From Candidatus Omnitrophota bacterium (GTDB lineage Bacteria; Omnitrophota; JACPQZ01), in the NCBI GenBank assembly GCA_016190205.1, contig JACPQZ010000076.1, positions 68,632 through 116,166 of the forward strand: DNA of 47,535 nucleotides, given 5' to 3'. Below the pieces are notes generated by a model that searched no databases, had not been told where the DNA came from, and saw nothing but the letters and a program-made list of their open reading frames with translations. Shown here one piece after another: positions 3,453 to 45,359 of this stretch (positions are counted from its first letter, which is position 1; each line of letters starts with the position of its first letter). A program made the translations under genes and the position numbers.

Positions 3453-5005
3453 TCGGATGCTTTTAACGGATCTTTCTCCAAGCGGCTCTTTAAGGCTGCC
3501 AGCTTTTCCTGAACCTTACTTTGCCCCGGATCCAGCTTCAGGGACTGCTCCCAGTGCTCCTGGGCCTGGGACCAGAGCTCGAGTTGATTATACATATCTC
3601 CCAAGTGATCTTGGATCACGGGGTCATCGGGCATGAGTTCGCCCGCGCGCTCCAGCCACTTCCGGGCATCCTCCCACATCCCCTTCTTAAAATACACCCA
3701 TCCCAGGCTGTCCACGTAGGCCCCGTTATCTGGCTCGAGCTTAAGGGCCTGCTGAATAAGCTCCAGGGCTTCATCCAGATGCATCCCCGCCTCTGCGTAC
3801 ATATAACCCAGGTAATTGTAGGCATCGGCGTTTTCCGGATTAACCCGGATGGCGCTCTTAAACTCCTCCGCCGCCTTCTCCTTGTCACCCATGCGGTCAT
3901 GCAGGGCGCCCAGCCGGAAATAGACATAATCATTCGTGGATTCGGCGTCCTTGGACTCGTTGAGAAACTGAACCGCCTCCTCATTTTGACCGAGCTCCGC
4001 ATGCGAAATCCCGAGGAGGAAACTCACCTCGTAGTTTTTTCCCGCAAGACCCCGCGCCTTCTCCAACACCCCCACGGCCTCTTCATAGCGCCGCTCCTTT
4101 AAGAGAAGGTAGGCCAGCTCGATGAAGCCGTCCACATGGTCCGGCTTGAGCTCCATGAGAAGTTTGTACTGCTGGATGGCCTCTTCTACCCGCCCGGCCT
4201 GGTAGTACATCTGCCCTAGATGATGGTACACCCTTAAATTCAGGGGATTGACCTTGAGCACCTCCTCGTACTGGGCGATGGACCTGTCCTTTTCGCCCTG
4301 CATCTCATAGATGACGGCAAGCCCCAGGCGCGCCTCCACATAGCCGGGCTTAAGTTCTACGGCCTTGTTGAGCATTGAGAGGGCGGCATCATAGCGGTTC
4401 ATCCGGCTAAACAGGATGCCCAGATTAAAATAGGTGACGGGCTCTGTCCGGCCCGCCGCGATTATTTTTTCATAGACGGCCACGGCCTGCGGCAGCTGGT
4501 CTTCCATGACATAAAGATCCGCCAGCGCGGTCAAGGCCTGTTCGTCTTGAGGCTCCTGCGCCAGGATCTTTTGATAATTCTCAATCGCCTTTGGGTACAT
4601 CTGCCGCGAAGTATAGAGAAGGGCAAGCAGAAAGAGGGGGCGGGTGTTACCAGGATCGAGCTCCTGACTTTTTTCCAGGGCCTCCACGGCCTCGTCAAAA
4701 CGGCCCATGCGAATGAGGCTCGCGCCCAACCGCAGGTGAATGATGGCATTGTCAGGATCGAGGCGCAGGGCCTCCTCGTAAGCATCTATGGCCGCTACGG
4801 TATTGCCGCGGTTGTCGTGCAAAAGGCCGCGCGTGTAGCTGGCCCAGGCCCGAGTCTTGTCGGTATCCGTCTTACCGGTCTTGCGGATGCCCGCGCATCC
4901 GGGCGCGAGGAGGGTGACCAGTATTAGGAGGGAAGCAGCGATTCGTACTGCGTACTGCGTACTGCGTACTGCGAGAGTCGACAGTCGACAGTCGACAGTC
5001 GACAA
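3449..5005 (-). CDS. TPR-repeat lipoprotein with start region inside heptamer repeats
   Basis: From the proposed TTG at 5005 the product has 518 residues. A hydrophobic segment around residues 22-33 is followed by a lipobox-like APGC, with Cys near residue 37, suggesting export and lipidation. The rest is a continuous array of roughly twelve tetratricopeptide repeats (patterns such as AIDAYEEALRLDPDNA), a scaffold for protein-protein contacts. No ATG exists near the signal peptide. The TTG has GGAG seven nt before it; GTG codons at 5020 and 5026 are alternatives. The frame stays open to a GTG at 5221, but that extension is pure heptamer sequence. Residues about 4-21 are encoded by GTCGACA and GTACTGC repeats. 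Binding partners are unknown. Confidence 0.8.
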   Translation of the reverse strand: MSTVDCRLSTLAVRSTQYAVRIAASLLILVTLLAPGCAGIRKTGKTDTDKTRAWASYTRGLLHDNRGNTVAAIDAYEEALRLDPDNAIIHLRLGASLIRMGRFDEAVEALEKSQELDPGNTRPLFLLALLYTSRQMYPKAIENYQKILAQEPQDEQALTALADLYVMEDQLPQAVAVYEKIIAAGRTEPVTYFNLGILFSRMNRYDAALSMLNKAVELKPGYVEARLGLAVIYEMQGEKDRSIAQYEEVLKVNPLNLRVYHHLGQMYYQAGRVEEAIQQYKLLMELKPDHVDGFIELAYLLLKERRYEEAVGVLEKARGLAGKNYEVSFLLGISHAELGQNEEAVQFLNESKDAESTNDYVYFRLGALHDRMGDKEKAAEEFKSAIRVNPENADAYNYLGYMYAEAGMHLDEALELIQQALKLEPDNGAYVDSLGWVYFKKGMWEDARKWLERAGELMPDDPVIQDHLGDMYNQLELWSQAQEHWEQSLKLDPGQSKVQEKLAALKSRLEKDPLKASE

Positions 5006-5219
5006 CCTGCGACTCCGCACATCCACGGCTAGCCTATCACCCCTGCTCCTTCTTGCTTCTTCCTCCGTCTCTCGGCAGACCGTGAACTGTGGACTGTAGA
5101 CAGCGGACAGTGGACCGTGGACCGTGGACTGTGGACGCACAACGCACAACGCACCACGCACCACGCACGACGGGGGATTTTCGGCATGCGATCCCCGATC
5201 CCCGATCCCCGATCCCCGC
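4944..5219. repeat. Five-family heptamer array upstream of and within the TPR lipoprotein start
   Basis: Successive 7-bp arrays are GTACTGC at 4944-4974, GTCGACA at 4977-5005, GTGGACT/GTGGACC at about 5080-5136, CGCACAA/CGCACCA at 5136-5170 and GATCCCC at 5189-5219. Each is tandem with a period of 7 and few mismatches. The array lies between hisG (stop at 5223) and the lipoprotein signal peptide and partly codes for its N-terminus. It is the densest mix of families in the window. Confidence 0.9.
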
Positions 5220-5222
5220 ACG

Positions 5223-6128
5223 TCAGTTTATAACCTTGTTGAGCGGATACTCGATAATCCCCTCCGCGCCGGCGCTCTTGAGGCGTGGGATGAGCACGCG
5301 CACCTCTTTTTCATCCACCACCGTGTCCACATCGTACCAGCCCGGCTGGGTCAGTTTGGCAACGGTAGGGCCCTTCAGCGCCGGAAGGATAGAGGTGACG
5401 CGTTTGAGATCTTTTCCGGAGACGTTCATCTTTAGACCCACCTTTTCGCGGGCCAATAGAGCGCCTTCCAGAAGAAGCGCGATGTTGGCAACCTTGGCAC
5501 GTTTGGCGCGGTCCTTCCAGGCCGCGCGGCTGGCAATGAGAACTGTCCTCGATTCCATCACGGTATCCAAAATGCGCAGGCGGTTGGCCCTCAAGCTCGT
5601 TCCGGTCTCCGTGACCTCCACGATTGCGTCCGCAAGGAGGGGGGGCTTCACCTCCGTCGCACCCCATGAGAACTCCACCCGCGCGCGGACGCCGTTCTTC
5701 TTTAAATAGGCGCGCGTGACCTGGACGAGCTCCGTTGAGATGCGCTTGTCCTTAAGATCGCGCACCGATTGAAACGGAGAGTCCTCCGAAACCGCCAGGA
5801 CCCAGCGCACCTTTCCCAGGCTCTGCTTGGCGTAATCGAGGGCCGTAACCGTCACCACCTTTGATCCGTTTTCCTCAACCCAGTCCTTACCCGTGAGTCC
5901 GCAATCGATGACCCCGTCCTCGACGTAGCGCGACATCTCCTGCGGCCGGAAGAGGATGACTTCTATCTCGGGATCGTCAATCGCGGGGTAATAAGAACGT
6001 GCACTCGCCTGAATATTAAATCCGGCATTCCGGAAAAGGCGGATCGTAGCCTCTTCCAGACTCCCCTTAGGTAACCCGAGCCTCAGGCGTGTCTTAACCC
6101 CTGTTGGTTTATCAGTGGCCTTTGTCAT
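5223..6128 (-). CDS. hisG: HisG, ATP phosphoribosyltransferase (long form)
   Basis: HisG catalyses the first step of histidine synthesis, joining ATP and PRPP. The N-terminus [19 protein letters not shown] and the segment [21 protein letters not shown] are typical. [21 protein letters not shown] is the PRPP-binding signature. At 301 residues with a C-terminal region reaching [18 protein letters not shown]...TVAKL, this is the long, self-sufficient form that carries the ACT-like histidine-feedback domain and does not need HisZ. It overlaps larC by about 17 nt, so translation is probably coupled. No other his gene is in view. Confidence 0.96.
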
Positions 6129-7312: not shown

Positions 7313-7526
7313 TCGTACTGCGTACTGCGTCGTGCGTACTGCGTAACGTCTGGGCGAGCAGGATTCGTACAGCGTTAGGCATGCGACGATTAGCGTAGAG
7401 CGTAGAGCGTATAGCGTAGAGGAAAGGGTTTTACTCTATACGCTATCCGCTATCCGCTATCCGCTATCCGCTAAACGCTATCCGCTAAACGCTTCACGTT
7501 CCACGCTGTACGCAGTACGCTGTACG
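7313..7526. repeat. Nested heptamer element: GTACTGC outer, GCGTAGA/GCTATCC inner
   Basis: The left arm 7313-7375 contains GTACTGC heptamers and a non-repeat core (GTCTGGGCGAGCAGG). It is identical over 63 bp to 43116-43178. The inner part is AGCGTAG-type repeats at 7393-7423 facing CGCTATC/CGCTAAA repeats at 7439-7494, and an outer returning arm ACGCTGT/ACGCAGT at 7498-7526. The geometry is arm, arm, inverted arm, inverted arm. It fills the 227-bp gap between larB and larC. Confidence 0.92.
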
Positions 7527-7529
7527 ATC

Positions 7530-14488: not shown

Positions 14489-15334
14489 CTAGGAAAGCGC
14501 CTTAAATGCTCGTGCCAACACGCTGTATTCCACAAGTGAAAGTTCTTCGGGTCTCTTACCGGAGTCCATCCCCAAGTTCTGCAGAAACTTCTGAATGTCG
14601 CCCTTCTTAAAAGCCGGTGCGAAAAGGCCGGAGAGGGCGTTGTCGATGCGCTTGCGCCTATGCTGAAAGGCTGTCCGCACGACCAATCGAAAGGAATCCA
14701 GGTCCTGTTGAGAGACCCGGGGCTCGGGGAGGGGCGCGAGCTTTACGAAAGCTGATTCGACCTGCGGGGCCGGGTAAAAGGCACGCGCGGGTATAGTAAA
14801 AAGTGTGCGCGCTTCAAACCACACCCCCAAAGAAAGCGTAAGGACTCCGTAGTCTTTGTTCCCCGGCTGTGCCGCGATGCGCTCCGCAACCTCGCGCTGC
14901 ATCGTAAGCCACACGCTTTTGAAAAGCGCGCGAAATTTTAGCAGTTGAAACAGAATGGGAGTCGTGATGTGGTAGGGCAAGTTACCGATGGCAAGTGCCG
15001 CAGGAGACACGAGCTCCGCGAGGTCACAGTCCAAAAAATCCGCCTGGACCACGCGGACGCGCATATTGCCGGCAAAACGCTCCTCAAGATGCCGGGCGAA
15101 GGCCCTGTCCTTCTCGATCGCGACTACCGTCGCGCCGCGCTCCGCGAGACGTTCCGTAAGAATCCCCGTCCCCGCCCCGATTTCGAGGACGCTGTCCCCT
15201 GCACGTACCCCCGTGGCGTCCACGAGCCGTTCCCTGATAGCAGAGTCAATGAGGAAACTTTGGCTCCAGCGCTTTTTTGGATAGACCTTAAGCGCCCTTA
15301 GGGTTTTTCTAACTTCTGCTTTGATGAGGCTCAT
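14489..15334 (-). CDS. rsmA: RsmA (KsgA), 16S rRNA dimethyladenosine transferase
   Basis: RsmA dimethylates two adjacent adenosines near the 3' end of 16S rRNA during small-subunit maturation. SAM-binding motif I LEIGAGTG, acidic motif AIEKDRAFA and the catalytic IGNLPYHIT motif are present, with the C-terminal FRLVVRTAFQHRRKRIDNAL helix region. The product has 281 residues. Its ATG overlaps the stop of the preceding TMTC-like gene as ATGA, so it is translationally coupled to it. A hairpin terminator follows. Confidence 0.96.
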   Translation of the reverse strand: MSLIKAEVRKTLRALKVYPKKRWSQSFLIDSAIRERLVDATGVRAGDSVLEIGAGTGILTERLAERGATVVAIEKDRAFARHLEERFAGNMRVRVVQADFLDCDLAELVSPAALAIGNLPYHITTPILFQLLKFRALFKSVWLTMQREVAERIAAQPGNKDYGVLTLSLGVWFEARTLFTIPARAFYPAPQVESAFVKLAPLPEPRVSQQDLDSFRLVVRTAFQHRRKRIDNALSGLFAPAFKKGDIQKFLQNLGMDSGKRPEELSLVEYSVLARAFKALS

Positions 15335-17287: not shown

Positions 17288-17478
17288 TCGTTCGGTTATC
17301 GTTGATCGCAAGCGCCGTAAGCTATCAGCTGTCAGCCTTCAGCCATCAGCAAAAGCTGGAGAAAATAGCTGACGGCCGAAGGCAGAAAGCCCATAATATT
17401 TCTTTTCTTGCGATAACCGATCACCGATAACCGATCACCGAATTGCGATAACCGATCACCGATGACCGATCAACGATC
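17288..17478. repeat. Composite heptamer element: GATCACC family around TCAGCCT family
   Basis: This is the same architecture as 1639-1830: GGTTATC-type repeats, a conserved core at 17305-17350 shared with 1666-1711 (one mismatch in 46 bp), an inverted TCAGC partner at about 17371-17388, and a long returning arm of ATAACCG/ATCACCG heptamers at 17411-17478. The right end reads into the 3' end of the neighbouring TMTC-like gene and supplies its stop codon. Confidence 0.9.
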
Positions 17479-19197
17479 CCCGAACGTTGTGCTTTCCGAC
17501 GCTGCTCCGCCGTGTCCCGACATAAGAAGCACCTGTCCCAGGTTGCGCCCGGCTTCCTCAAGCGCGGGGTCAAGCGCCAGCGCCTCACGATAATACCCCG
17601 CGGCCTCCTTGAGCCTTCCCTGCTCAAAATAGACATTTCCCAGATTATTATAAGCCTGGGCATGGGCCGGGTTCGCCTCAAGCGCTTTTCTTAAATACTC
17701 CTCCGCTTCTGAAAACCGGCCGGTGCGGCTCAGCTCTCCCCCCATATTCGTCAGGGCATCCACATGCCTGGGGCTTAACGACAAGGCCTCCCGGTAGTGC
17801 TTCATGGCCTCGGCGGGATTTCTTCGCCCGCTTTCAACGAGCCCCAGCGCATTGTGCGCATCCGGGTATTCGGCCTTCAGCGCGAGCGCCTTTTTAAGAT
17901 GGTGAGCCGCCTCTTCGTACTGCGCCGAATGGAGGAGGGCGAACCCCAAGTTGTAGTGCGCCCTCGCGTTTGCCGGGCGCTTCTCTACGGTATCACGCCA
18001 GATCTCAGCGTCGCTTTGATAGTCCAGATTGCGAGCCACTGTAAGCACGCCCAGGACGAGGGCAGGGAGCATCGCAAAAGCTGAGCATAGAATGAGACGC
18101 CTTCGTTCCGGTTTCGCCCATTTGTTTAGTGCCCAATACACCGCGAGGGTCGCCAAAGTAGCGACGCAAGCCAGAGGCAAATACATGCGGTGCTCAAACG
18201 CGGGATCCGGTAATGGAATGAAACCGGACGTGGGGGCCAGAATAAGAAAGAAGGCGAGCCCGACGAAACCCACCCTCGGATGCGCAACAGTGGCCCACAG
18301 CGCGAGGACAAAAAGTGCACCGAGGATGAGACCCGGAATCAGCACCCCTTCGCGGGCCACCTGAAGAGGCCAGGCATAATCCAGCACGAGGGGATGAGGC
18401 CAAACGCACAGCTTTAAATACTTGAGAATCACTCCGGGCTGAAGGGCGGCATACTTCAAAGGCGTAAGCTCCGAATAGGTAAACCAGGTGCCCGTCCCGT
18501 GCCTTGCCTGTGCCTGAAGCATAAGCCCCGCAGCCAAAAGTGTCGTTGAGAAAAGGGCAAGGTAAAACCCAAGGCGCCGGGCGAGGGCTTTAAAAAATGA
18601 ACCTGTGACAAAACATCGGTCATAAAGAAGTATGGAGACGGGGACCGTTACCATGACGGGCTTGGCCAGCATGCCTAGGCAAGAGAAAAGAATGCTCGCC
18701 TTAAGCCACCCCTTCCGACCGCGAGGAGTCGTGCCGAGGATGAAGGCATAGAGCGCAGCCAGGTAAAAAAGCCCCATCATGGATTCGCTCCGCTGAATAA
18801 CATACGTCACACTCTCGGTCTGGAGGGGGTGCACGAGCCACAGGAGGGAGATCGAAAAGGCGGGTCCCCACCGGAGCGCGGTCCTCAAGATGAAAAACAA
18901 CAAAAAGGACGCAAGGACGTGGACCGCGAGATTAAACGCATGATACCCCCAAGGATTCAAGCCGCCCAGGCGGTAATTAAAGGCAAGGGACAAATTGAGG
19001 AGCGGTCTTGACTCGCGTTCCCCGGGAATCGCGAAGAGGGTCTCCCACAGAGGCCACAGTTTACGGATGGACGGATTTTTTACAATGTAGCTTTCGTCAT
19101 CAAAGACGAAATCGCCTGAAAAGCTGTTATGGTAAGCGAGGAGGGCGGCCACGAGAAGGAGGATGAGCGAAAGGGCTGTGCCGCGAGTCGCACGCAT
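17470..19197 (-). CDS. TMTC-like multi-pass membrane protein with C-terminal TPRs (paralog 2)
   Basis: This 575-residue product has the same plan as its downstream neighbour. A first hydrophobic segment is followed by FSGDFVFDDESYIVKNPSIR, then HPLQTESVTYVIQRSESMMG, roughly ten membrane helices, FEHRMYLPLA and four to five TPRs at the C-terminus (AHYNLGFALL, ALNNMG-like units). The family fold is GT-C glycosyltransferase; dolichol- or polyprenyl-linked sugar would be the expected donor. The last residues (about TTFGDR) and the stop TGA lie in heptamer sequence, so the original C-terminus may have been replaced. The tandem arrangement suggests gene duplication followed by divergence. Confidence 0.85.
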   Translation of the reverse strand: MRATRGTALSLILLLVAALLAYHNSFSGDFVFDDESYIVKNPSIRKLWPLWETLFAIPGERESRPLLNLSLAFNYRLGGLNPWGYHAFNLAVHVLASFLLFFILRTALRWGPAFSISLLWLVHPLQTESVTYVIQRSESMMGLFYLAALYAFILGTTPRGRKGWLKASILFSCLGMLAKPVMVTVPVSILLYDRCFVTGSFFKALARRLGFYLALFSTTLLAAGLMLQAQARHGTGTWFTYSELTPLKYAALQPGVILKYLKLCVWPHPLVLDYAWPLQVAREGVLIPGLILGALFVLALWATVAHPRVGFVGLAFFLILAPTSGFIPLPDPAFEHRMYLPLACVATLATLAVYWALNKWAKPERRRLILCSAFAMLPALVLGVLTVARNLDYQSDAEIWRDTVEKRPANARAHYNLGFALLHSAQYEEAAHHLKKALALKAEYPDAHNALGLVESGRRNPAEAMKHYREALSLSPRHVDALTNMGGELSRTGRFSEAEEYLRKALEANPAHAQAYNNLGNVYFEQGRLKEAAGYYREALALDPALEEAGRNLGQVLLMSGHGGAASESTTFGDR

Positions 19198-22761: not shown

Positions 22762-23903
22762 TTGATCGAAATAAATGCCTCTTCTTTAAGTTCATTCACC
22801 CATGTCCGGAAGGCCGCAGAGAATTTTTCCTGGTAGAGCGCGTTCTCAATCTCATCGTTAACTTCTTGAAACGCAGGCAGGGATGCCTCCTGTCTCACAT
22901 CCACCCTGAAGAAGTGGTAGCCCACGCGGGACTCGACGGGGCCCGAAATTTCGCTCACCTTCAAAGAAAAGAGGGTCTTGTCAATCTCTTCCACCATTTC
23001 CCCCCGGGAAACGAACCCTAAGTCCCCGCCCTCGTCGCGGTTGGGGCCTTCGGAATACTGCTTGCAGACTTCCTCGAAGGGGGTCCCTTGCTCAAGAAGA
23101 GCGCGCACGCGCTCCAGTTTTTCAAGGACGAGGTCCTGACCCTCCACCGTTGCCTCGTCCTCCGCCTCCCCAAGGCCATCGCCGGCCGGGGCCTCATCTT
23201 CGGGGCGCGCCTTGCGTATGAGGATCATCCTGGCTCTAACCTTCTCCGGCGTCTTAAAATCGTCCGCATGAGCACTATAGTAATCTTGTATCTCCTTGGG
23301 AGATACGATGATACGAGATCTGACCTCCATTCCGATAAGCTGCTGAATCAGGTGCTGGTCCCTGTACTTTTGCCTCAATTCTTCCAGCGAGAGCCCCTGC
23401 TCGCTCACAGCCTGATGGAAGGCTTCCTCCGATTCGAATTTTCCAATGACCTCGCGGACGCGCTCCTCCACCTGCTCGGCGCTCGCCTCGAGTCCCTTTT
23501 CACGCGCCCTCTGCAGAATGAGGTGATCCTCGATGATCTGCCCCAGAATATCCCTGCGTGCCTCGGAGATCTTTCGCACAAGCCCTTCTCCCTGATAAAC
23601 CGTCTGATACTGCGCGACAATGGGATTCAGGCGCTCCATGAGCTCGCTCTGCGTGACGATGTCTTCGTTGACGACCGCGACAATCCTGTCGACTACCTCT
23701 GCCACCGCTATAGATATAACAGGACGGAACCATGATTCGGGAAGCGGGAAGCGGGAAGCGGGAAGCGAAAGAAACCAGATACCAGAAACCAGCAACCAGA
23801 AGAAACCAGTTACCAGAAACCAGAGATGGGGCGAACGGATCTTTTTCTGGTATCTGGTATCTGGTATCCTCTGGTATCTGGTTACTGGTTTCTGGTTACT
23901 CAT
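22758..23903 (-). CDS. surA: SurA-like periplasmic chaperone/peptidyl-prolyl isomerase
   Basis: The mature part starts near residue 69 with EVVDRIVAVVNEDIVTQSEL, the SurA N-terminal domain, and has one parvulin domain around residues 220-345 (ARMILIRKAR, then GGDLGFVSRGEM, and SRVGYHFFRV). SurA assists folding of outer-membrane proteins, so an outer membrane is implied. The start ATG at 23903 overlaps the mfd stop. The first 68 residues have a basic stretch then a hydrophobic one (residues 27-47), and almost all of this is encoded by ACCAGAA and GAAGCGG heptamers. No other canonical start precedes the mature domain except a GTG at 23705 that would lack any signal. Function firm, start moderately sure. 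Confidence 0.87.
   Translation of the reverse strand: MSNQKPVTRYQRIPDTRYQKKIRSPHLWFLVTGFFWLLVSGIWFLSLPASRFPLPESWFRPVISIAVAEVVDRIVAVVNEDIVTQSELMERLNPIVAQYQTVYQGEGLVRKISEARRDILGQIIEDHLILQRAREKGLEASAEQVEERVREVIGKFESEEAFHQAVSEQGLSLEELRQKYRDQHLIQQLIGMEVRSRIIVSPKEIQDYYSAHADDFKTPEKVRARMILIRKARPEDEAPAGDGLGEAEDEATVEGQDLVLEKLERVRALLEQGTPFEEVCKQYSEGPNRDEGGDLGFVSRGEMVEEIDKTLFSLKVSEISGPVESRVGYHFFRVDVRQEASLPAFQEVNDEIENALYQEKFSAAFRTWVNELKEEAFISIK
23739..23900. repeat. Heptamer arrays ACCAGAA and GAAGCGG, coding for the SurA-like signal peptide
   Basis: GAAGCGG occurs about four times at 23739-23768. ACCAGAA/ACCAGCA heptamers cover 23775-23825, and their inverted arm TATCTGG/TTTCTGG covers 23847-23900. The region lies inside the surA-like frame and reaches the mfd stop codon. 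Period 7 is maintained throughout. Confidence 0.9.
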
Positions 23904-25853: not shown

Positions 25854-26082
25854 CCGGCCCCTCGGGCCGCCTGCGGGCCGATCTCAAGCATCCAGGATAC
25901 TGCACCCGGGGCCGGCACCCTTCTCCGCGAAACGTTCGCGCCCCAGCGAGGCGCTCACTCTGCATTTTTTGTGCACCGCAGCCCTCTTAAGCGAGCGGGC
26001 GGACCGTGCTGCACAAAAAATGAGGTTCGCTCCGAAGGGCGCCGCCCCCGGCTGCGATCGGCCCGCTGGCCCCAGGGGTCGG
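25854..26082. repeat. Giant foldback H1 between mfd and rplQ
   Basis: Nested inverted segments are 25854-25862 with 26074-26082, an 11-bp perfect pair 25873-25883 with 26056-26066, 25906-25923 with 26034-26051 (imperfect), and a 13-bp perfect pair 25963-25975 with 26010-26022. A small hairpin lies at 25927-25940. The region can form one 229-nt branched stem. I see no gene in it; open frames there have no recognisable product. Confidence 0.82.
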
Positions 26083-26096
26083 ATGACAGAAATTGA

Positions 26097-26372
26097 GAAC
26101 GCCCGGCTCGGACCCTGAAGGCCGCTTCGGCTGTTTTAGGTGTTCTCCGCAGACGGCGAGGGATAGAGAACGGCTGCTGTCTGAGGCCCGATTCGAGCGC
26201 GATCCGCCGAAGGCGGAAAAATCAGCCAGTGGGCTGATTTTGGAAGCGCGAGTGCTTAATCGGGCCGAGTTCAGCCGTTCCCCGAGCCGGCCAGGAGAAC
26301 ACCGACCCCCTGGATGCTTGGTGGTACGGTGGGAAAACAGACGGCGGCCTGAAGGGGACGAGACGGGCGTTC
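26097..26372. repeat. Giant foldback H2 between mfd and rplQ
   Basis: At least eight nested pairs were found: 26097-26105 with 26364-26372, 26120-26125 with 26344-26349, 26131-26137 with 26334-26340, 26139-26148 with 26294-26303, 26168-26176 with 26272-26280, 26185-26193 with 26258-26266, and apical hairpins 26204-26216 and 26218-26241. The order is strictly nested, as in a structured RNA or a decayed inverted repeat. Conserved motifs of RNase P RNA, tmRNA, SRP RNA and group II intron domain V are absent. Confidence 0.82.
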
Positions 26373-26374
26373 TA

Positions 26375-26537
26375 GAAGCTATCCCGAAACCCCCTTTCTG
26401 CTGCAATCGCTGCTTTTGGCCTGCGCCTTTGCGCCGCTCAGCTTGCGCACCGCTACGGGTGCGCGGCGCCTCACGCCGCTGCGGCTCGGCCTCAAAAGCA
26501 GCGATTTCGCTACGAAATGAGGTTTCGGGATAGCTTC
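26375..26537. repeat. Giant foldback H3 immediately downstream of rplQ
   Basis: The ends 26375-26391 and 26521-26537 are a perfect 17-bp inverted repeat. Inside, 26405-26421 pairs with 26488-26506 (two-base bulge), and GCGCACC at 26445 pairs with GGTGCGC ending at 26464. It begins 10 nt after the rplQ stop codon and could serve as a terminator or processing structure for the alpha-operon transcript. H1-H3 together account for most of the 741-bp gene-free stretch 25807-26547. Confidence 0.83.
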
Positions 26538-35049: not shown

Positions 35050-35275
35050 GCTTGTCGCTAGTCGCTAGATGCTAGTCGCTAGCAGAAAAGCAGTCGCTAG
35101 TGACTGGTCGCTAGCAAGAGTCGATAGACCACAGTCCATAGTCCACAAGCCAAACCGTGGACTGTTGACCGTGGACTGAGGACTACAGGCGCCCAGCGAC
35201 TTTTTTCTTGCCAGCGACTGGCGACCAGCGACTTTTTTCTTGCCAGCGACTGGCGACCAGCGACTAGCGACTAAA
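35050..35275. repeat. Nested heptamer array: GTCGCTA outer, GTCCACA inner
   Basis: GTCGCTA units at 35053-35115 are followed by CCACAGT/CCATAGT units at 35120-35148, the inverse GTGGACT/GTTGACC at 35155-35185, and CGACCAG/CGACTAG units at 35191-35275. Within the last part a 32-bp block (35194-35225) is repeated exactly in tandem (35226-35257). It fills the 253-bp gap between rplF and rpsH. Confidence 0.92.
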
Positions 35276-37365: not shown

Positions 37366-37520
37366 CCCGTACTGCGTACTGCGTACAGCGTACTGCGTCA
37401 TAGTCTAGTCACCAGGTTTACAGCCATTCGGCTCATTTGCCCGTACTGCGTACAACGTACCGCGTGAAGAATCAGAATGGTTTTTCTTTCGCTGTACGCA
37501 CGACGCTGTACGCTGTACGA
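37366..37520. repeat. Heptamer array, GTACTGC / ACGCTGT family
   Basis: GTACTGC/GTACAGC units at 37369-37397, GTACTGC/GTACAAC/GTACCGC at 37441-37463 and returning ACGCTGT/ACGCTGT at 37494-37520 lie between rplN and rpsQ. The centre (37398-37440) is unrelated sequence. Confidence 0.85.
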
Positions 37521-38485: not shown

Positions 38486-39307
38486 TTAAGACCTCATCCG
38501 GCTCGCATCACGGGGCCCCGTACCCCTGCCCCTGCGCGGGCGTTTTTGCCCGGAGAATAGCTCGTCACTGGACCAGGCATCGGTCTGCTTGGTCGGAAGA
38601 CCTTCTTCAGACCTCTCCCGGGTAGCGCCCTTGATGCGGTCTTTGATCTCCTGCTCCCGGCCCTCCCGGCTCGGACCCAGGACCTCGCCCTTATACACCC
38701 AAACTTTCACCCCGATGGTGCCATAGGTAGTCTGCGCCTCGCTGAAACCATACTGCACATCGGCCCGAAATGTCTGGAGCGGAACCTTGCCTTCATGATA
38801 GGTTTCCTTACGTGCAATCTCGGCGCCCGCGAGCCTCCCGCCGACTTTGATCTTGATCCCCTGGGCCCCCCGTGCCATGGCCGTTTGGATCGCCTTCTTC
38901 ATGGCTCGCCTGAAAGCGACGCGCCTCACAAGCTGAAATGACACATTTTCCGCGATAAGCTGTGCGTCTATCTGGGGATGCTTGACCTCCTCTACATCGA
39001 TCTTTATGTCGGGGGTGTCCCGGCCGGTCATCTTCGCGAAATCCGCGGTCAGGCGCTCGATCTCCTGACCCTTGCGCCCGATGATGACCCCTGGTCTTGC
39101 CGTCTTCAAAATAATGCGAATGCGGTTTGGGGTCCTCTCGATCTCAATCTTGGAGATCGCAGCATAGCCCAGCTCCTTTCGGATATGCTCACGGATGCGG
39201 ATATCCTCATGGAGCTGCTTGGCAAATTCGTGGCGTGCATACCAACGTGAATTCCAAGTCTCGATGACTCCCAGTCGTACGCTTAAAGGATGTGCCTTTT
39301 GTCCCAT
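38486..39307 (-). CDS. rpsC: Ribosomal protein S3 with C-terminal extension
   Basis: S3 forms part of the mRNA entry tunnel and has helicase activity there. [24 protein letters not shown], the KH-domain [13 protein letters not shown] and [56 protein letters not shown] are conserved. I start it at ATG 39307, with GAGG six nt before it; two other start-like codons precede. At 273 residues it exceeds the common 210-235 by a basic, Arg/Gly-rich tail ([14 protein letters not shown]). Confidence 0.96.
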
Positions 39308-39327
39308 CATCAACCTCTATAAACTTT

Positions 39328-39436
39328 TGCTTGTCGCTTGTAGTCCACAGTCCGCAGTCGACAGTCCACGGATTGGCTTGTGGACTATGGACTGTGGTCT
39401 GTCGACTCATGCTAGCGACCAGCGACTAGCGACTGA
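39328..39436. repeat. Nested heptamer array: GTCCACA inner, GCGACTA outer
   Basis: GTCGCTT at 39331-39338, CCACAGT/CCGCAGT/CGACAGT at 39343-39369, returning GTGGACT/ATGGACT/GTGGTCT at 39381-39404, and GCGACCA/GCGACTA at 39413-39436. It is a smaller version of the element at 35050-35275. It lies between rpsC and rplV. Confidence 0.87.
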
Positions 39437-39443
39437 AATCTTT

Positions 39444-39881
39444 TTACGTCTTTGCCCCGGCTGCCATTTTCTTCAACCGGCGCCCCGCAGCCTGGATCCT
39501 CGCCGCTGCCGACTGCTGAACGGGAGTTCGCTTCACAGGCGACTGCCCGGGACGAAGATCAAGCTCTACATGAATGTGGCTCGTCCGCTTCAAGATCCTG
39601 GAGGAGCGGCCCATGGCACGTGGACGGAACCTTTTCATGCTGGGGCCTATGTCTGCCGTAATCTTCGAGATGTACAACTGATCGGCCGTGTGACCTAAAC
39701 GGCTTTCCACATTCGCCAGGGCCGAACGCAGGAGCTTCCCTACATGAAAGCCCGCCCTCTTATTGAGGTGCACTAACTGGGCGAGCGCCCAAGGGCAGTC
39801 TTTGCCCCGGATCACGTTTATGACCTGACGCACCTTCCGTGCCGACATCCGGACATACGTAACACTCGCCTTACCTACCAC
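39444..39881 (-). CDS. rplV: Ribosomal protein L22 with basic tail
   Basis: L22 lines the polypeptide exit tunnel. [53 protein letters not shown] and the beta-hairpin region [33 protein letters not shown] are typical. The product has 145 residues; the last 30 are Ala/Lys/Arg-rich and not part of the usual 110-residue protein. Confidence 0.97.
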   Translation of the reverse strand: [145 protein letters not shown]

Positions 39882-39894
39882 GTGTGTAGCTACT

Positions 39895-40012
39895 CCTGTC
39901 GCTAGTCGCTAGCAAAATAGGACCGTTCATAACGACTGACGAAGTTTTTGTTTGCCAGCGACTGGCGACCAGCGACTGCTTTTTGCCAGCGACTGGCGAC
40001 CAGCAACTGACG
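39895..40012. repeat. Heptamer array, GTCGCTA / CGACCAG family
   Basis: GTCGCTAG at 39898-39911 faces CAGCGACTGGCGACC blocks at 39955-39977 and 39987-40009, the blocks being direct repeats separated by CTTTTTG. It occupies the gap between rplV and rpsS. Confidence 0.88.
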
Positions 40013-40297
40013 CTATGTTTTCTCAGCAGATTCCACGCCCACCGCACCGTGCCTGCGAAACATGCGCGTGGGCGCGAACTCACCCAGTTTGTGGCCTACC
40101 ATGGCCTCAGTGACATACACCGGCAGAAATTTATTCCCATTGTGGACGTTGAATGTTACCCCCACAAAATCAGGGGTAACGGTCGACCGGCGTGACCACG
40201 TCTTGATCGGGGCGCGATCCTTGGTCTTCTTCGCGCGCAGGACCTTCTGCATGAGTTTCTCATCCACATAAGGACCCTTGGAAAGCGATCGTCCCAT
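40013..40297 (-). CDS. rpsS: Ribosomal protein S19
   Basis: S19 sits in the 30S head beside S13. [75 protein letters not shown] is nearly the complete conserved protein. It has 94 residues and follows directly on rplB. Confidence 0.99.
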
Positions 40298-41125
40298 CTA
40301 TTTCCTCCGCTCCACGATAAAACGGTCCGAGGGCTTGGCCCGGCGCCGCGTCTTGTACCCCTTAGAAGGACGGCCATAGAAATCACACGGGTGCCGGCCC
40401 CCGGCAGACTTGCCCTCGCCGCCGCCCAGCGGATGGTCCACAGGATTCATAGCCCGGGGCCGCGTGCGCGGCCTCCTTCCCTTCCAGCGATTGCGCCCTG
40501 CCTTACCCAACTGGACATTGACATGATCGGCATTGGATACCTGCCCGATCGTGGCAGAACAATCTTCCGGAAACCTGCGCACCTCACCCGATGGCAGTCT
40601 CACATGTGCCATGCCCTCTTCCTTGGAAAGAATAGTGGCGCTCGAGCCTGCGGAACGGACCAGGGTTCCCCCCCTTCCCTTGATGAGCTCTATGTTGAAA
40701 ATAGGGGTCCCGGGCGGGATCTTGGACAAGGGGAGCGTGTTTCCCGGAGCTATCGGGGCGTCCGGACCGGACATGACCTTCTGTCCCACCTGAGCCCCTT
40801 CTGGTGCGAGGACATAGCTTTTCTCTTTATTTTCATACTCAATGAGGGCAATGCGTCCTGTCCGGTTCGGATCGTACTCTATCGTCCGCACGGAGGCAGG
40901 GATATTGACGAACCGTGACCGCGTAAAATCGATGAGGCGATAGCGCCTACGGTGCCCGCCGCCCCTGTATTTCGCGGTGATGTGCCCGTGTACGTTCCGC
41001 CCCCCCCGCTTGCGGGAAGCCTCCGTCAGTGGACGGTAAGGCCTGTCCGCAGTTACCTCCGCAAACGTAGGCAGCGACGCTTTCCGCTGACCGGGGGTCA
41101 CTGGATTCAATTTTCTGATAGCCAT
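40298..41125 (-). CDS. rplB: Ribosomal protein L2
   Basis: L2 is needed for subunit joining and peptidyl transfer. The C-terminal MNPVDHPLGGGEGKSAGGRHP has the conserved histidine close to the catalytic centre; GRNVHGHITAKYRGGGHRRRYRLIDF is the RNA-binding OB region. The product has 275 residues. It abuts rpsS without a gap, and a heptamer array precedes it on the rplW side. Confidence 0.99.
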   Translation of the reverse strand: MAIRKLNPVTPGQRKASLPTFAEVTADRPYRPLTEASRKRGGRNVHGHITAKYRGGGHRRRYRLIDFTRSRFVNIPASVRTIEYDPNRTGRIALIEYENKEKSYVLAPEGAQVGQKVMSGPDAPIAPGNTLPLSKIPPGTPIFNIELIKGRGGTLVRSAGSSATILSKEEGMAHVRLPSGEVRRFPEDCSATIGQVSNADHVNVQLGKAGRNRWKGRRPRTRPRAMNPVDHPLGGGEGKSAGGRHPCDFYGRPSKGYKTRRRAKPSDRFIVERRK

Positions 41126-41145
41126 GTTTACCGATATTGCCTTGT

Positions 41146-41235
41146 TGTCGCTAGTGTCTAGTCGCTGGTCGCTAGCAAAATGAGTTGTTCATTAACAGTT
41201 GACGAGGTTTTTATTTGCCAGCGACTGGCGACCCA
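41146..41235. repeat. Heptamer array, GTCGCTA / GCGACTG family
   Basis: GTCGCTAGTGTCTAGTCGCTGGTCGCTAG-type units (41149-41176) face GCCAGCGACTGGCGACC (41217-41233). It lies between rplW and rplB. The middle is AT-rich (ATGAGTTGTTCATTAACAG). Confidence 0.86.
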
Positions 41236-41240
41236 CGCCG

Positions 41241-41519
41241 TTATGTAATCTCAATTTTCTCGCCGGCGGCCAGCGTCACCACCGCCCTCTTCACATCGGG
41301 ACGGTACCCCGGCCGGGTACGCACTCGTTTGAGTTTTCCCCTCCGGATCGCCGTGTTTACCTGCACCACTTTCACTTTATACAGCTCTTCAACAGCCCGC
41401 TTGATATCATGCTTGTTGGAATGGCGGTCTACCGCAAAGAGGTATTTGCCCTGCGGGCCCATGAGGGACCCCTTTTCGGTCAATAACGGGTAGCGAATGA
41501 CTTCAGTTGGGTGCTTCAT
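41241..41519 (-). CDS. rplW: Ribosomal protein L23
   Basis: L23 is at the tunnel exit and docks trigger factor and SRP. EVIRYPLLTEKGSLMGPQGKYLFAVDRHSNKHDIKRAVEELYKVKVVQVNTAIRRGKLKRV is the family signature. It has 92 residues and is followed by heptamer arrays on both sides. Confidence 0.98.
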   Translation of the reverse strand: MKHPTEVIRYPLLTEKGSLMGPQGKYLFAVDRHSNKHDIKRAVEELYKVKVVQVNTAIRRGKLKRVRTRPGYRPDVKRAVVTLAAGEKIEIT

Positions 41520-41550
41520 GTCAAGCTATCCTTCTTCCACGCGAGCAATG

Positions 41551-41630
41551 CCTGTCGTGAGGGGTGTGTGAAGTGTGATGAGGGGTACGATTGTTTCATC
41601 ACTCATCACTCATCACTCACGACTCATCAC
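41551..41630. repeat. Heptamer array, GTCGTGA / ACTCATC family
   Basis: The arm GTCGTGA/GGGGTGT/GTGAAGT/GTGATGA (41553-41581) faces ATCACTC repeated about five times (41599-41630). It lies between rplD and rplW and reaches the rplD stop region. Confidence 0.88.
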
Positions 41631-42275
41631 GGCCGCTGTTCTTCCGTTCCATAAGAGCCTCTGCGTCACCATCCCCAGGGCCTCTCTTGAAAAAACGCAC
41701 TGATCGTGAGATGCGACATCCTGCGCGGTCAAATCCTGGGCCGTCCGCGTATCGAGCCCGGGTACGTTGCGCCCGCAGCGTTCCACAGCCCTGTCCCTCG
41801 TCTCGATCACAAGGAGCGGCTTTGAGGTTGCTCCCAAACGCTTGAGCCCCTCCAGGAGCTCCTTCGTTTTAGCCTTTTCCAGGCCCACCCGGTCAACGAT
41901 GATCAGTTTTTCCTGGCCGATTTTCTGGTTCAAGACAGAGCGCAGGGCGCCCAGGCGCATCTTGCGGGGCAGGTGATACCTGATCGTCTTGGGATGCGGT
42001 CCGAATACGGTCCCTCCGCCTTTCCAGTGCGGCGCGCGAATCGAAGAGGTGCGGGCCCTGCCCGTTCCTTTCTGCCGCCATGGCTTGCGGCCGCCTCCCC
42101 GTACCTCCCCGAAGGTGCGGGTGGAAGCGGTAAAGGCGCGCCGATTCTGCCCGTAAGACCACAGCACCTCGTGGACCAGGGCGGGATTCAACTTTCCGTC
42201 AAAGACCTTGAGATCCAGAGGGGCCTCGCCCACTTTCTTCGCCTGCTTCCAGTCCAGTATAGGTAATCCAGCCAC
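41613..42275 (-). CDS. rplD: Ribosomal protein L4
   Basis: L4 lines the exit tunnel and in E. coli represses the S10 operon. The loop segment RTFGEVRGGGRKPWRQKGTGRARTSSIRAPHWKGGGTVFGPHPKTIRYHLPRKMRLGALRS is diagnostic. The product has 220 residues; the C-terminal 15 or so (LLWNGRTAAVMSRE) extend into the region of a CTCATCA array and may have been altered by it. Confidence 0.97.
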   Translation of the reverse strand: MAGLPILDWKQAKKVGEAPLDLKVFDGKLNPALVHEVLWSYGQNRRAFTASTRTFGEVRGGGRKPWRQKGTGRARTSSIRAPHWKGGGTVFGPHPKTIRYHLPRKMRLGALRSVLNQKIGQEKLIIVDRVGLEKAKTKELLEGLKRLGATSKPLLVIETRDRAVERCGRNVPGLDTRTAQDLTAQDVASHDQCVFSREALGMVTQRLLWNGRTAAVMSRE

Positions 42276-42299
42276 TTTATCCCTCTAAAAACTTGCCCG

Positions 42300-42394
42300 T
42301 CGCTCGTTGATCGGTTATCGTTGATCGCAAGCCGATACCTATGCTTTTTTTCTTGCGATCACCGATGACCGATGACCGATAACCGATCCACGAA
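42300..42394. repeat. Heptamer array, GATCGGT-TATCGTT / ACCGATG family
   Basis: GTTGATCGGTTATCGTTGATCGCAAG at 42306-42331 faces GCGATCACCGATGACCGATGACCGATAACCGATCC at 42355-42389. It fills the gap between rplC and rplD. It is a compact version of the composite elements at 1639-1830 and 17288-17478, without the TCAGCCT insert. Confidence 0.9.
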
Positions 42395-43102
42395 TCATTG
42401 TTTCTTAACCCGCGCTTTGGCCTTTAGTTTCTTGGCGACCTGCTCAATACGTTCTTTACGGCGCGGCCGCTTGAGCGCCTTTTCGATCACCAGGTACTCG
42501 TTGCGCGGACCCGGAACTTGACCCTTGACGATAAGAAGATTCTTGTCAACCATGACATCCACCACTTCCACGTTTTCAACCGTTCGGACGCGGTGACCCA
42601 TATGCCCCGGCATGTGATGCCCCGGGAACACGCGCGACGGAAAAGAGCTCGCACCGATAGAACCCGGCCGGCGGTGCGTCATGGAACCGTGGGTCTCATC
42701 CCCGCCTCTCCAATTCCAGCGGCGGACCCCCCCCTGGAAACCTTTGCCGATGGTAGTGCCCGTCACATCCACGCACTCGCCCGCGCTAAACCGGTCCACC
42801 TTCACCGGCTGGCCCTGGGCGTATGAATTCCGCTCCTCCTGTGACTTGATCTTGAATTCCCGGACAAAGCGCCGCGGCGCGACCGCCGCCTTCTTATACT
42901 CCCCCAGCTGGGGCTTGGGCGTCCGCTTCTCTTTGGCGCTCCCGAACCCCATGATCACCGCCTCGTACCCATCGGCTTCTTGGGTCTTAAAGCGAATCAC
43001 GTCGCAGGGTCCGGCCTCGATAACCGTCACCGGCACGCGCTCGCCGGAGGGGTCGTAGACCTGGGTCATACCTAACTTCTTACCTAGAATGCCTATAGCC
43101 AT
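42395..43102 (-). CDS. rplC: Ribosomal protein L3
   Basis: L3 is an early assembly protein close to the peptidyl transferase centre. The true N-terminus is MAIGILGKKLGMTQVYDPSG at ATG 43102; the open frame continues 62 codons further through GTACTGC-type repeats but that part is not L3. VDVTGTTIGKGFQGGVRRWNWRGGDETHGSMTHRRPGSIG is the conserved loop. The product has 235 residues, about 20-25 more than average because of a Lys/Arg-rich tail. Confidence 0.96.
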   Translation of the reverse strand: MAIGILGKKLGMTQVYDPSGERVPVTVIEAGPCDVIRFKTQEADGYEAVIMGFGSAKEKRTPKPQLGEYKKAAVAPRRFVREFKIKSQEERNSYAQGQPVKVDRFSAGECVDVTGTTIGKGFQGGVRRWNWRGGDETHGSMTHRRPGSIGASSFPSRVFPGHHMPGHMGHRVRTVENVEVVDVMVDKNLLIVKGQVPGPRNEYLVIEKALKRPRRKERIEQVAKKLKAKARVKKQ

Positions 43103-43114
43103 GAAGAGACCTTG

Positions 43115-43275
43115 CTCGTACTGCGTACTGCGTCGTGCGTACTGCGTAACGTCTGGGCGAGCAGGATTCGTACAGCGTACAGCGTCGTGCGTACAGCGAA
43201 CGAAAACCCATTCTCTACTTTCACGCAGTACGCCGTACGCAGTACGCTGTACGCTGTACGCGGTACGCTGTACGT
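43115..43275. repeat. Nested heptamer element, GTACTGC / TACGCTG family
   Basis: Positions 43116-43178 are identical to 7313-7375 over 63 bp, including a non-repeat core. Then TACAGCG units (to 43198), a central GAAAACCCATTCTC block, and a returning arm of ACGCAGT/ACGCCGT/ACGCTGT units at 43223-43275. It lies between rplC and rpsJ. Confidence 0.92.
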
Positions 43276-43291
43276 AACCTGCAGCCAACGA

Positions 43292-43621
43292 TCATGTCTT
43301 AATCTCCACATCCACGCCCGCCGGAAGATCGAGCTTCATGAGCGCATCCACCGTCTTTGCCGTAGGATTCATAATATCGATCAGGCGCTTATGCGTTTTG
43401 ATCTGAAACTGATCCCGCGACTTTTTGTCGATCACAGGACTGCGCAATACGGTATAGTCTTCCCGCTTGGTCGGAAGAGGGATCGGCCCCGATACCAGCG
43501 CGCCGGTCCTCAAGGCCGTGCTTACAATTTCAGCCGCAGACTTATCCAAGATGCGGTGGTCGTAGGCCCTGAGCCTGATCCTTACCTTCTGTTTCGCTTT
43601 AACAGGCGCTGTGGTTGTCAT
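43292..43621 (-). CDS. rpsJ: Ribosomal protein S10
   Basis: S10 belongs to the 30S head and also forms part of antitermination complexes with Nus[73 protein letters not shown] is the family signature. It has 109 residues with a short N-terminal extension ([11 protein letters not shown]). Confidence 0.99.
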
Positions 43622-43649
43622 CTTTCACCCTCTTAGCGAGCCCGGTCCG

Positions 43650-43775
43650 TGCTTCGTTCTTCGTTCTTCGTGCTTCGTGCTTCGTGCGTCGTGCGTCCCA
43701 CAGACTGCCGGGTAACGAGTGAGGGGATCTTTTTTAGCTGTTACGAAGCACGAGGCACGCGGCACGAAGCACGCC
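43650..43775. repeat. Heptamer array, GTGCTTC / ACGAAGC family
   Basis: The left arm CGTTCTT/CGTTCTT/CGTGCTT/CGTGCTT/CGTGCGT/CGTGCGT (43651-43697) faces ACGAAGCACGAGGCACGCGGCACGAAGCACG-type units (43743-43773). It lies between rpsJ and rpmG. Confidence 0.9.
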
Positions 43776-43780
43776 CTGTG

Positions 43781-43933
43781 CTATTTATGCTCCTTGTGCT
43801 CAGTATGCTTCCGGCAGAACGGGCAATATTTCGAGCGCACCAATCGATCGGTATGCGTTTTCCGATTCTTGCGGGTTGTATAATTGCGCCGGCTGCAAAC
43901 GCCGCACGCCATCGTTATAACCTCTGCCGCCAT
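43781..43933 (-). CDS. rpmG: Ribosomal protein L33, zinc type
   Basis: Translating from ATG 43933 gives 50 residues that begin [20 protein letters not shown], continue [20 protein letters not shown] and end in [10 protein letters not shown]. Zinc ligands CxxC and CxxC are present. L33 is on the 50S E-site side. Its position between tuf and rpsJ is less common than between tuf and secE, since the usual tRNA-Trp/secE/nusG unit is absent here. It is too short for the usual frame cut-off but fully supported. Confidence 0.97.
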
Positions 43934-43957
43934 CTTTCACTCTCTAAGCTTGCACGG

Positions 43958-44053
43958 TTCGTACTGCGTCTTGCGTCGTGCGTACTGCGAAAGAAAAACC
44001 ATTCTCGTCCTTCACGCTGTACGCAGTACGCAGTACGCTGTACGCTTCACGCG
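43958..44053. repeat. Heptamer array, GTACTGC / GTACGCA family
   Basis: GTACTGCGTCTTGCGTCGTGCGTACTGCG units (43960-43989) face ACGCTGTACGCAGTACGCAGTACGCTGTACGC units (44013-44046). It lies between rpmG and tuf and ends at the tuf stop codon. Confidence 0.9.
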
Positions 44054-45234
44054 ATGATTTCACTGACTACCCCGGCCCCCACGGTGTGGCCGCCTTCGCG
44101 GATGGCGAAGCGCACTTCCTTTTCCATGGCGATGGGGGCGATGAGCTCGATCTCGAGGTCGATGTTGTCCCCCGGCATGACCATCTCGACCCCTTTGGGA
44201 AGGGTGGCCACCCCGGTCACATCCGTCGTGCGGAAATAGAACTGGGGCCGGTAGCCTGAAAAGAAGGGGGTGTGCCGGCCGCCTTCCTCCTTGGTGAGAC
44301 AATAGACCTTGGCCTTAAACTTGGTGTGGGGGGTAATCGTCCCGGGATGGGCCAAGACCTGTCCGCGCTGGAGGTCCTTTTTGTCGGTGCCCCGTAAGAG
44401 GACCCCCACGTTGTCCCCGGCCTGGCCTTCATCGAGGAGCTTGCGGAACATCTCGATGCCCGTGACGACCGTCTTTTTGGTGGGGGCGAGCCCCACGATC
44501 TCGATCTCTTCATTGAGTTTCACCTTTCCCCGCTCGATTCTCCCGGTGCCCACGGTGCCCCGTCCGGTGATGGAGAAGACGTCTTCCACCGGCATGAGAA
44601 AGGGCTTATCCGTCTGCCGCACGGGGGTGGGGACGTAACTATCGACCTTCTCCATCAGGGCCTCAATCCCCTTGCTCGCCTCGGCGTCTCCCTGCATGGC
44701 CTTCAAGGCACTTCCCCTTATGATGGGCACGTCCGAGCCGGGAAACTCGTATTTGGTCAAGAGGTCTCTCACTTCAAGCTCCACCAGATCCAAAAGCTCG
44801 GGGTCGTCGACCTGGTCCACCTTGTTTAGGAAGACCACGATGGAAGGGACTCCCACCTGACGGGCCAAGAGGATGTGCTCCCGGGTTTGGGGCATGGGGC
44901 CGTCGGGGGCACTCACTACCAGAATCGCTCCATCCATCTGCGCCGCGCCGGTCACCATGTTTTTGATGTAGTCGGCGTGCCCGGGGCAGTCCACGTGGGC
45001 ATAGTGGCGTTTGTCGGTCTGGTACTCCACGTGGCTCACCGCAATCGTGATCCCGCGCTCCTTTTCCTCGGGGGCATTGTCGATGGAATCAAAGCTTCTC
45101 ACCTCGCACAGGCCCTTCTTCGCCAAAACGGTCGTGATGGCGCTTGTCAAGGTAGTCTTGCCGTGATCCACATGCCCGATGGTGCCGATATTGATATGGG
45201 GTTTGGTGCGCGTGAATTTTTCCTTGGTGGCCAT
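44047..45234 (-). CDS. tuf: Elongation factor Tu
   Basis: EF-Tu delivers aminoacyl-tRNA to the ribosome. GTP-binding motifs [18 protein letters not shown] and NKVD are present, followed by the beta-barrel domains with [25 protein letters not shown] and FRTTDVTG. The length of 395 residues is standard. It follows fusA after a heptamer array of about 120 bp. Confidence 0.99.
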
Positions 45235-45258
45235 TATTAATCCTCCATGCTAGCTTTC

Positions 45259-45341
45259 CCCGTGCTTCGTGCCTCGTGCCTCGTGCTTCGTAACGGTTGA
45301 CGATGAACGAAGCACGATGAACGAAGAACGAAGCACGAACA
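45259..45341. repeat. Heptamer array, GTGCTTC / ACGAAGC family
   Basis: GTGCTTCGTGCCTCGTGCCTCGTGCTTCG (45261-45289) faces ACGAAGCACGATGAACGAAGAACGAAGCACG (about 45308-45340). It lies between tuf and fusA and is the same family as 43650-43775. Confidence 0.9.
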
Positions 45342-45359
45342 CATTATTTATGACTTAAT

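Follow-up and report, generated by a model that had tools for sequence, protein, structure and literature searches.

Heptamer hairpins, often nested and with one family holding a duplicated 63-bp block, are dispersed through the intergenic gaps of an Omnitrophota genome

The window, a stretch of 47,535 nt from an Omnitrophota genome (1.65 Mb, a draft in 76 contigs), carries the same 63-bp block in two gaps between different genes. An earlier note on this DNA had named the gene context correctly: copy 1 is flanked by larC (PF01969) and a gene for a larB-like AIRC protein (PF00731), and copy 2 by the genes for ribosomal proteins L3 and S10. Both blocks belong to larger hairpins, and both of these fold far better than shuffled sequence. 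The CGTACWG elements of the window are as follows, with the strand given where one applies.

7313–7375, plus strand: 63-bp module, consisting of a CGTACTG arm, a 21-nt core (AACGTCTGGGCGAGCAGGATT) and the opening heptamers of the array that follows
7313–7527: composite hairpin element in the gap between larC and the larB-like gene, with outer CGTACWG arms and the ends TCGTAC...GTACGA; DNA fold z -6.8
7391–7466: inner hairpin of AGCGTAG and CTATCCG heptamers
43116–43178, plus strand: second exact copy of the 63-bp module
43116–43274: CGTACWG hairpin element in the rpsJ/rplC gap, consisting of the module, a second direct arm, a AAAACCCATTCTC spacer and inverted arms; DNA fold z -4.5
43960–44044: CGTACWG hairpin directly 3' of tuf
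37369–37519: CGTACWG element in the gap between the L14 and S17 genes

The duplicated block is exact and multicopy. As the earlier note had claimed, the two window copies agree over all 63 bp. They agree over no further base on either side, and their flanks are unrelated. They form the longest exact repeat of the window, the runner-up being a 41-bp local tandem. The GTACTGC heptamers noted in the block occur 24 times against 2.4 expected. A search of the whole genome returned 92 matches. Sixteen are whole units with 84–100% identity, on ten contigs and at 13 places; the remainder are arms or other parts. The proposal that the block was copied as a piece thus holds, whether by gene conversion or by mobility, and 16 copies at 13 places make it a real multicopy sequence and rule out a local duplication or assembly error. 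The outcome that the earlier note had named as a refutation, a lack of more copies together with a local assembly duplication, did not arise. Units stand as tandem doubles at 3 of the 13 places, with a period of 51–52 bp. Among the 16, the two window copies are mutual nearest relatives: they have CGTACTG arms and CTGGGCGAG, and the other units have CGGGGCGAG or similar.

Two points had been missed: the 63-bp unit is a module, arm plus core, within a hairpin element, and dozens of heptamer families share the same arrangement, CGTACWG being just one. The unit runs from an arm (CGTACWG CGTACWG CGTCGTG CGTACWG CG) through a core of about 21 nt to the arm again in the same direction. In most full copies a spacer, AACGAAAACCCATTCTCAACTTTCA, follows, and then the heptamers inverted, so that the whole is a hairpin of 160–215 bp. 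Positions 7313 and 43116 are outer ends of such elements. The points where the copies diverge, 7376 and 43179, had been taken as the unit's boundary, but both are internal to elements: copy 1 there enters the inner AGCGTAG hairpin, and copy 2 carries on in heptamers. Exact identity thus runs from the outer end into an array, and the place where it stops is not a unit boundary.

CGTACWG arms enclose at least four interiors: the 21-nt core, the AGCGTAG hairpin, a TGCAAAG hairpin (at L018 and at L059 8299) and a 42-nt cassette around GAGCAAATGAGCCGAATGGCTG (at window position 37408, L055, L013–L015 and others). The composite at 7313–7527 recurs inverted at L050 7726–7952, with about 88% identity over 220 bp and different flanks, and both copies end in TCGTAC and GTACGA. 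At L055 1–290 and 3134–3469, CGTACWG arrays alternate with the 42-nt cassette in a layout that resembles repeats and spacers.

A step of exactly 7 bases pervades the genome. We measured periodicity as self-similarity at a fixed lag, requiring at least 75% of 21 comparisons to be equal. The window has 43 segments at lag 7, none at lags 4–6 and 8–13, and 28 at lag 14. Across 436,166 bp, comprising the window and 20 further stretches of its genome, 148 lag-7 segments were found against 0–2 in five shuffles; control lags gave 0–3 segments (lags 3–6, 8–11 and 13) and 7 (lag 12). Peaks recur at multiples of 7, and the 21 segments at lag 24 are mostly CAGAAAC arrays with a 3-base slip. The 148 segments have 73 distinct consensus heptamers. 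The window, with 43 segments in 47.5 kb, is richer in them than the other stretches, with 105 in 388.6 kb, and 50 kb of E. coli K-12 around the same operon has no lag-7 segment.

The repeat is a non-coding DNA hairpin whose arms consist of about 4–7 near-identical 7-mers, with the same heptamer inverted in the partner arm. We took the 400-bp surroundings of each segment in reverse complement and aligned the segment to them, with random placement as the null. An inverted partner scoring at least 25 was found for 99 of the 148 segments and for 1 of 148 in the null; at a score of at least 30 the numbers are 83 and 1. Pairs scoring at least 30 merge into 41 element loci, with a median span of 145 bp and a maximum of 373. 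Several elements are concentric. At L047 and L063, CGTGATT heptamers lie outside, CAGAAAC in the middle and AAATTCG inside, and the two composites are 91% identical over 270 bp. Other families form hairpins at these places in the window.

1638–1805: element of the CGGTTAT family, with inner AGCTATC heptamers
17289–17486: outer hairpin of the CGGTTAT family, related to 1638–1805
23770–23900: CAGAAAC/CTGGTAT-family hairpin
35054–35271: CTAGCGA-family hairpin
39333–39419: GTCCACA/TGGACTG-family hairpin
41554–41631: TCATCAC-family hairpin in the gap between rplD and the next open reading frame
42304–42394: CGATGAC/CGGTTAT-family hairpin in the rplC/rplD gap
43648–43775: CGTGCTT-family hairpin upstream of rpsJ
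45261–45337: CGTGCTT-family hairpin upstream of tuf

Upstream of a gene for a TPR protein, at 4937–5218, five arrays follow one another (CGTACTG, CGACAGT, GACCGTG, ACGCACA and CGATCCC). An Rfam scan of the window returned only one tRNA.

Elements sit between cistrons. Of 6,664 bases in heptad segments, 5,627 (84%) lie outside predicted genes, and non-coding sequence makes up 16% of the sample. Among gaps of at least 10 bp, segments occur in 63 of the 235 between co-directional genes, in 5 of the 19 convergent ones and in 2 of the 15 divergent ones, counts that are approximate because gene positions come from a custom open reading frame caller that misses some ribosomal genes. The 41 element loci divide into 34 between co-directional genes, 2 convergent, 1 divergent and 4 unclear. 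In the S10 operon the distance from rpsJ to rplC is 189 bp, versus 32 in E. coli, and adjacent gaps of this operon hold different, unrelated heptamers.

Relatives share the step in a patchy fashion. A search with L3 assigns the window's genome to Omnitrophota: most of the best 80 loci bear that name, beside a few Methylomirabilota and others. Of these 80 loci, 23 have lag-7 segments (71 in 1.17 Mb) and 12 have lag-8 segments (30). The step is not always 7, since L072, from another Omnitrophota genome, has clear octamer hairpins (4863–5540 and 14612–15070, GTTAGCCG/AACTGGCT). Arrays with a 9-base step (CAACAAACT, GAGTTCATT) lie in gaps of a ribosomal gene cluster at L076 17317–17380 and 19289–19370 and at L096 14733; lag-9 rows other than these look like coding sequence. 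We call the phenomenon patchy because a further set of 26 relatives, each with at least 8 kb of readable sequence, holds 24 lag-7 segments in 698 kb, and these fall in 11 of the genomes. The exact CGTACWG three-heptamer pattern occurs in 4 of 384 genomes of the phylum, the window's own included, with 46 sites there and 5 in the other three. This family is therefore nearly private, whereas the 7-base step is shared. Plasmids and viral contigs gave no match to the CGTACWG element or its arm pattern.

Close relatives replace their hairpins rapidly. L085 and L094 (Methylomirabilota, 91% identical) carry arrays in the same spacers but with different heptamers, which in one spacer differ completely, with GAGCCGG in one genome and GATTGGT in the other. 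In a second pair, L076 and L080, which are roughly 88–97% identical in aligned blocks, we aligned ten spacer regions of the ribosomal cluster and read them by eye: hairpins in one genome are absent from the other or swapped there for another. Two L080 spacers contain an AGTAACC-armed element that both L076 counterparts lack. At L080 15383–15500 and 16343–16440 it ends in a small hairpin, CCCGAACGNAGYGAGGG, immediately 5' of a start codon. The GAGGG of CCCGAACGNAGYGAGGG could act as a Shine-Dalgarno sequence, in which case the insertion may carry a ribosome-binding site with it.

Pairing within the hairpins decays much as under random change. In five pairs of paralogous elements of the window's genome, taking the first of each as reference, 315 base pairs are unchanged, 50 are broken, 21 are changed on one side and still standard, and 1 is changed on both sides and standard, besides gaps. 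Three orthologous L085/L094 spacers have 59 unchanged pairs, 3 changed on one side and still pairing, 1 changed on both sides and pairing, and 21 broken. Compensatory changes are thus practically lacking, at 1 in the five paralogous pairs and 1 in the three orthologous spacers, although weak covariation could be missed because the alignment of periodic sequence is ambiguous. We judge the 21 of 71 broken or one-side-changed pairs that still pair to be about what random change gives, which we estimate at one in six to one in three. Pairing therefore probably reflects the origin of the arms and not later selection.

We favour, at roughly even confidence, an origin by slippage together with recombination or template switching between arrays, with the 63-bp block as a module of a dispersed non-coding hairpin repeat. 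Replication slippage would extend an array by 7-base steps. Matching arms, whatever their heptamer, would follow from hairpin-templated (quasi-palindrome) synthesis that copied the array into an inverted partner. Similar arrays at many loci could then anchor gene conversion or template switching that copies the interior, here the 21-nt core, and tracts of identity made in this way would end inside arrays. Selection would mainly exclude elements from coding sequence; nothing indicates that it maintains the pairing. To reach a new gap in the first place, an element would need a non-homologous step.

Several observations argue for this origin: the exact period of 7, inverted partners, non-coding placement, varied interiors, tandem doubling, the mutual closeness of the window copies, the lack of target duplications and the drift-like pairing. 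Two genomes, G023 and G041 (93% and 87% complete), also have CGTACWG arrays and no match to the Y1 family (PF01797). Against it stand whole composites with both outer ends at unrelated flanks and in opposite orientation (7313–7527 and L050; L047 and L063), a dispersal that looks more like transposition than conversion, and the presence of the AGTAACC element in two L080 spacers but in neither L076 counterpart.

A mobilising enzyme is the strongest rival, and we hold it as a tentative possibility. The elements would be REPIN- or MITE-like, miniature and non-autonomous, and an enzyme that recognises hairpins and not a sequence, for instance a RAYT (REP-associated tyrosine transposase), would mobilise them in trans. 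Composites are dispersed whole, with ends intact and in both orientations, and we keep a substantial minority weight on such an enzyme because both ends occur together at unrelated sites. The elements have terminal inverted repeats, and an autonomous partner was sought in the Y1 family. The genome has four Y1_Tnp genes, all with NF047646 as best NCBIfam match and one above its cut-off. The L3 loci gave access to 28 genomes, 14 picked for heptads there and 14 without. Across these, heptad density correlated with the number of Y1 genes per Mb (rho 0.55, p 0.003) but not with phage integrase (PF00589; rho -0.05).

Other relatives do not reproduce this correlation. A second set began as 40 relatives; leaving out 12 that had less than 8 kb of readable sequence and 2 that belonged to the first set gave the 26 described above, and two stretches picked earlier for CGTACWG matches were not counted. 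Here heptad density and Y1 gave rho -0.12 (p 0.55). Thirty Y1 loci of 12 genomes hold 5 lag-7 segments, no denser than elsewhere, and an array directly adjoins one of the four Y1 genes of the window's genome (L044, upstream), which is not the flanking by repeats expected of RAYT genes. CGTACWG elements start (G)TTCGTAC and end GTACGA(AC), without a GTAG or CGTC tag at the palindrome foot, and other families start differently. The earlier note had suggested that a flanking target-site duplication would support transposition: none of the 41 element loci has one of at least 5 bp, where 0.5 were expected by chance, so transposition with target duplication leaves no signal. RAYT as the driver was set aside and kept only as a rival, given the failed correlation in 26 genomes and the choice of 14 of the 28 for heptads. 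The same failure, the arrays of G023 and G041 with no Y1 match, the lack of enrichment at Y1 loci and the missing target duplications are why we prefer slippage, hairpin-templated synthesis and array-anchored conversion.

A bolder reading, which we consider rather doubtful, is that structure-specific, sequence-blind copying builds the hairpins by a fixed increment, 7 bases here and 8 or 9 in some relatives. If so, any heptamer could serve as an arm, the machinery (a polymerase, a reverse transcriptase or a hairpin-recognising nuclease) and not the sequence would dictate the step, and many intergenic gaps would be remodelled, those of ribosomal operons included.

Selected signals between cistrons, such as terminators, mRNA stabilisers or processing sites, or binding sites for nucleoid proteins, are an improbable explanation. 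Such a role would suit the 34 of 41 loci between co-directional genes and the fold scores of the two window elements, and the similar paired arrays of Geobacter were proposed to bind IHF/HU (excerpted account in PMC2700814). Yet compensatory changes are hardly found, and the sequence is not conserved, since neighbouring gaps of one operon hold unrelated heptamers and close relatives replace them. Terminators in particular would be odd in most gaps of a ribosomal operon, and 39200–45400 has 8 terminator-like sites (a G+C-rich stem and a T run) against 7.0 in shuffles. An assembly artefact or duplicated contig ends is very improbable: some contigs of this 76-contig draft do start or end in such repeats (C54, C13), but both window copies are internal to a single 116-kb contig, where their flanks and neighbouring genes differ, the 14 further copies on other contigs differ from this pair and from each other, and heptamer hairpins occur in independent assemblies of other genomes.

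Heptamer diversity, nesting and module swapping set these elements apart from known paired arrays. One of the closest parallels is the GGGAATC repeat of Xanthomonas, according to the excerpted text of Rehm et al. 2015 (PMC4692102): it is likewise an intergenic heptamer array, with 70 inverted pairs in Xcc and 75 in Xac, and two species share the gene context of 83% of the repeats, with variable length and sequence. That system has a single G-rich, G4-forming heptamer, whereas a quarter of one genome here holds 73 consensus heptamers over 148 segments, with nesting and dispersed cores. In Geobacter metallireducens, paired "global regulator binding sites" of classes 1–3 are multicopy, on opposite strands and at variable distance, with 3–5 tandem 7–8-mers (8 in class 1, 7 in class 3; Aklujkar et al. 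2009, PMC2700814). Tandem 7-mers on opposite strands recur here, and Omnitrophota relatives also have 8-mers. The Geobacter sites have a few fixed consensus sequences, read as IHF/HU sites, and the excerpted description mentions no nesting or module exchange.

Further parallels are partial. REPs and REPINs are dispersed extragenic palindromes, often in inverted pairs and mostly between unidirectional or convergent genes; REPs are 20–40 bp long with a GTAG or CGTC tag, and the excerpted account describes no 7-base repeat (PMC3733652). The elements here are also dispersed extragenic palindromes, but we found neither the tag nor a RAYT linkage. TAACTGA repeats of Beggiatoaceae and cyanobacteria are intergenic and occur in ribosomal protein operons too; by the excerpted account they are a single heptamer in direct orientation, with one indirect repeat reported, versus the inverted pairs here (PMC4679880). 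A word-matched search of open-licence PubMed Central returned no publication describing such arrays for Omnitrophota. What seems to be new is how many heptamers a single genome holds, together with concentric nesting, the exchange of interiors and rapid turnover within ribosomal operons.

This genome separates the 7-base step from any sequence, with dozens of heptamers, one step and paired arms. Over-represented heptamers in bacterial genomes have been reported, with a polymerase footprint guessed to set the unit (work cited in the excerpted text of PMC4692102); with the step isolated from a particular sequence, what sets it becomes a testable question. Close relatives offer natural mutation-accumulation lines in which elements can be compared. 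In ribosomal operons the spacers between cistrons are replaced rapidly, and the inserted hairpins are under no visible constraint.

Repeats of other kinds are also present. The start of contig C34 (L049 1–6394) has repeated sequence around a Y1 transposase gene, which we take to be RHS-like. At 25901–26380 the window has a dispersed G+C-rich repeat without heptads, with the motif ATTTTTTGCGCA, and this recurs at 83–94% identity in L055 (two places), L059, L060 and L061.
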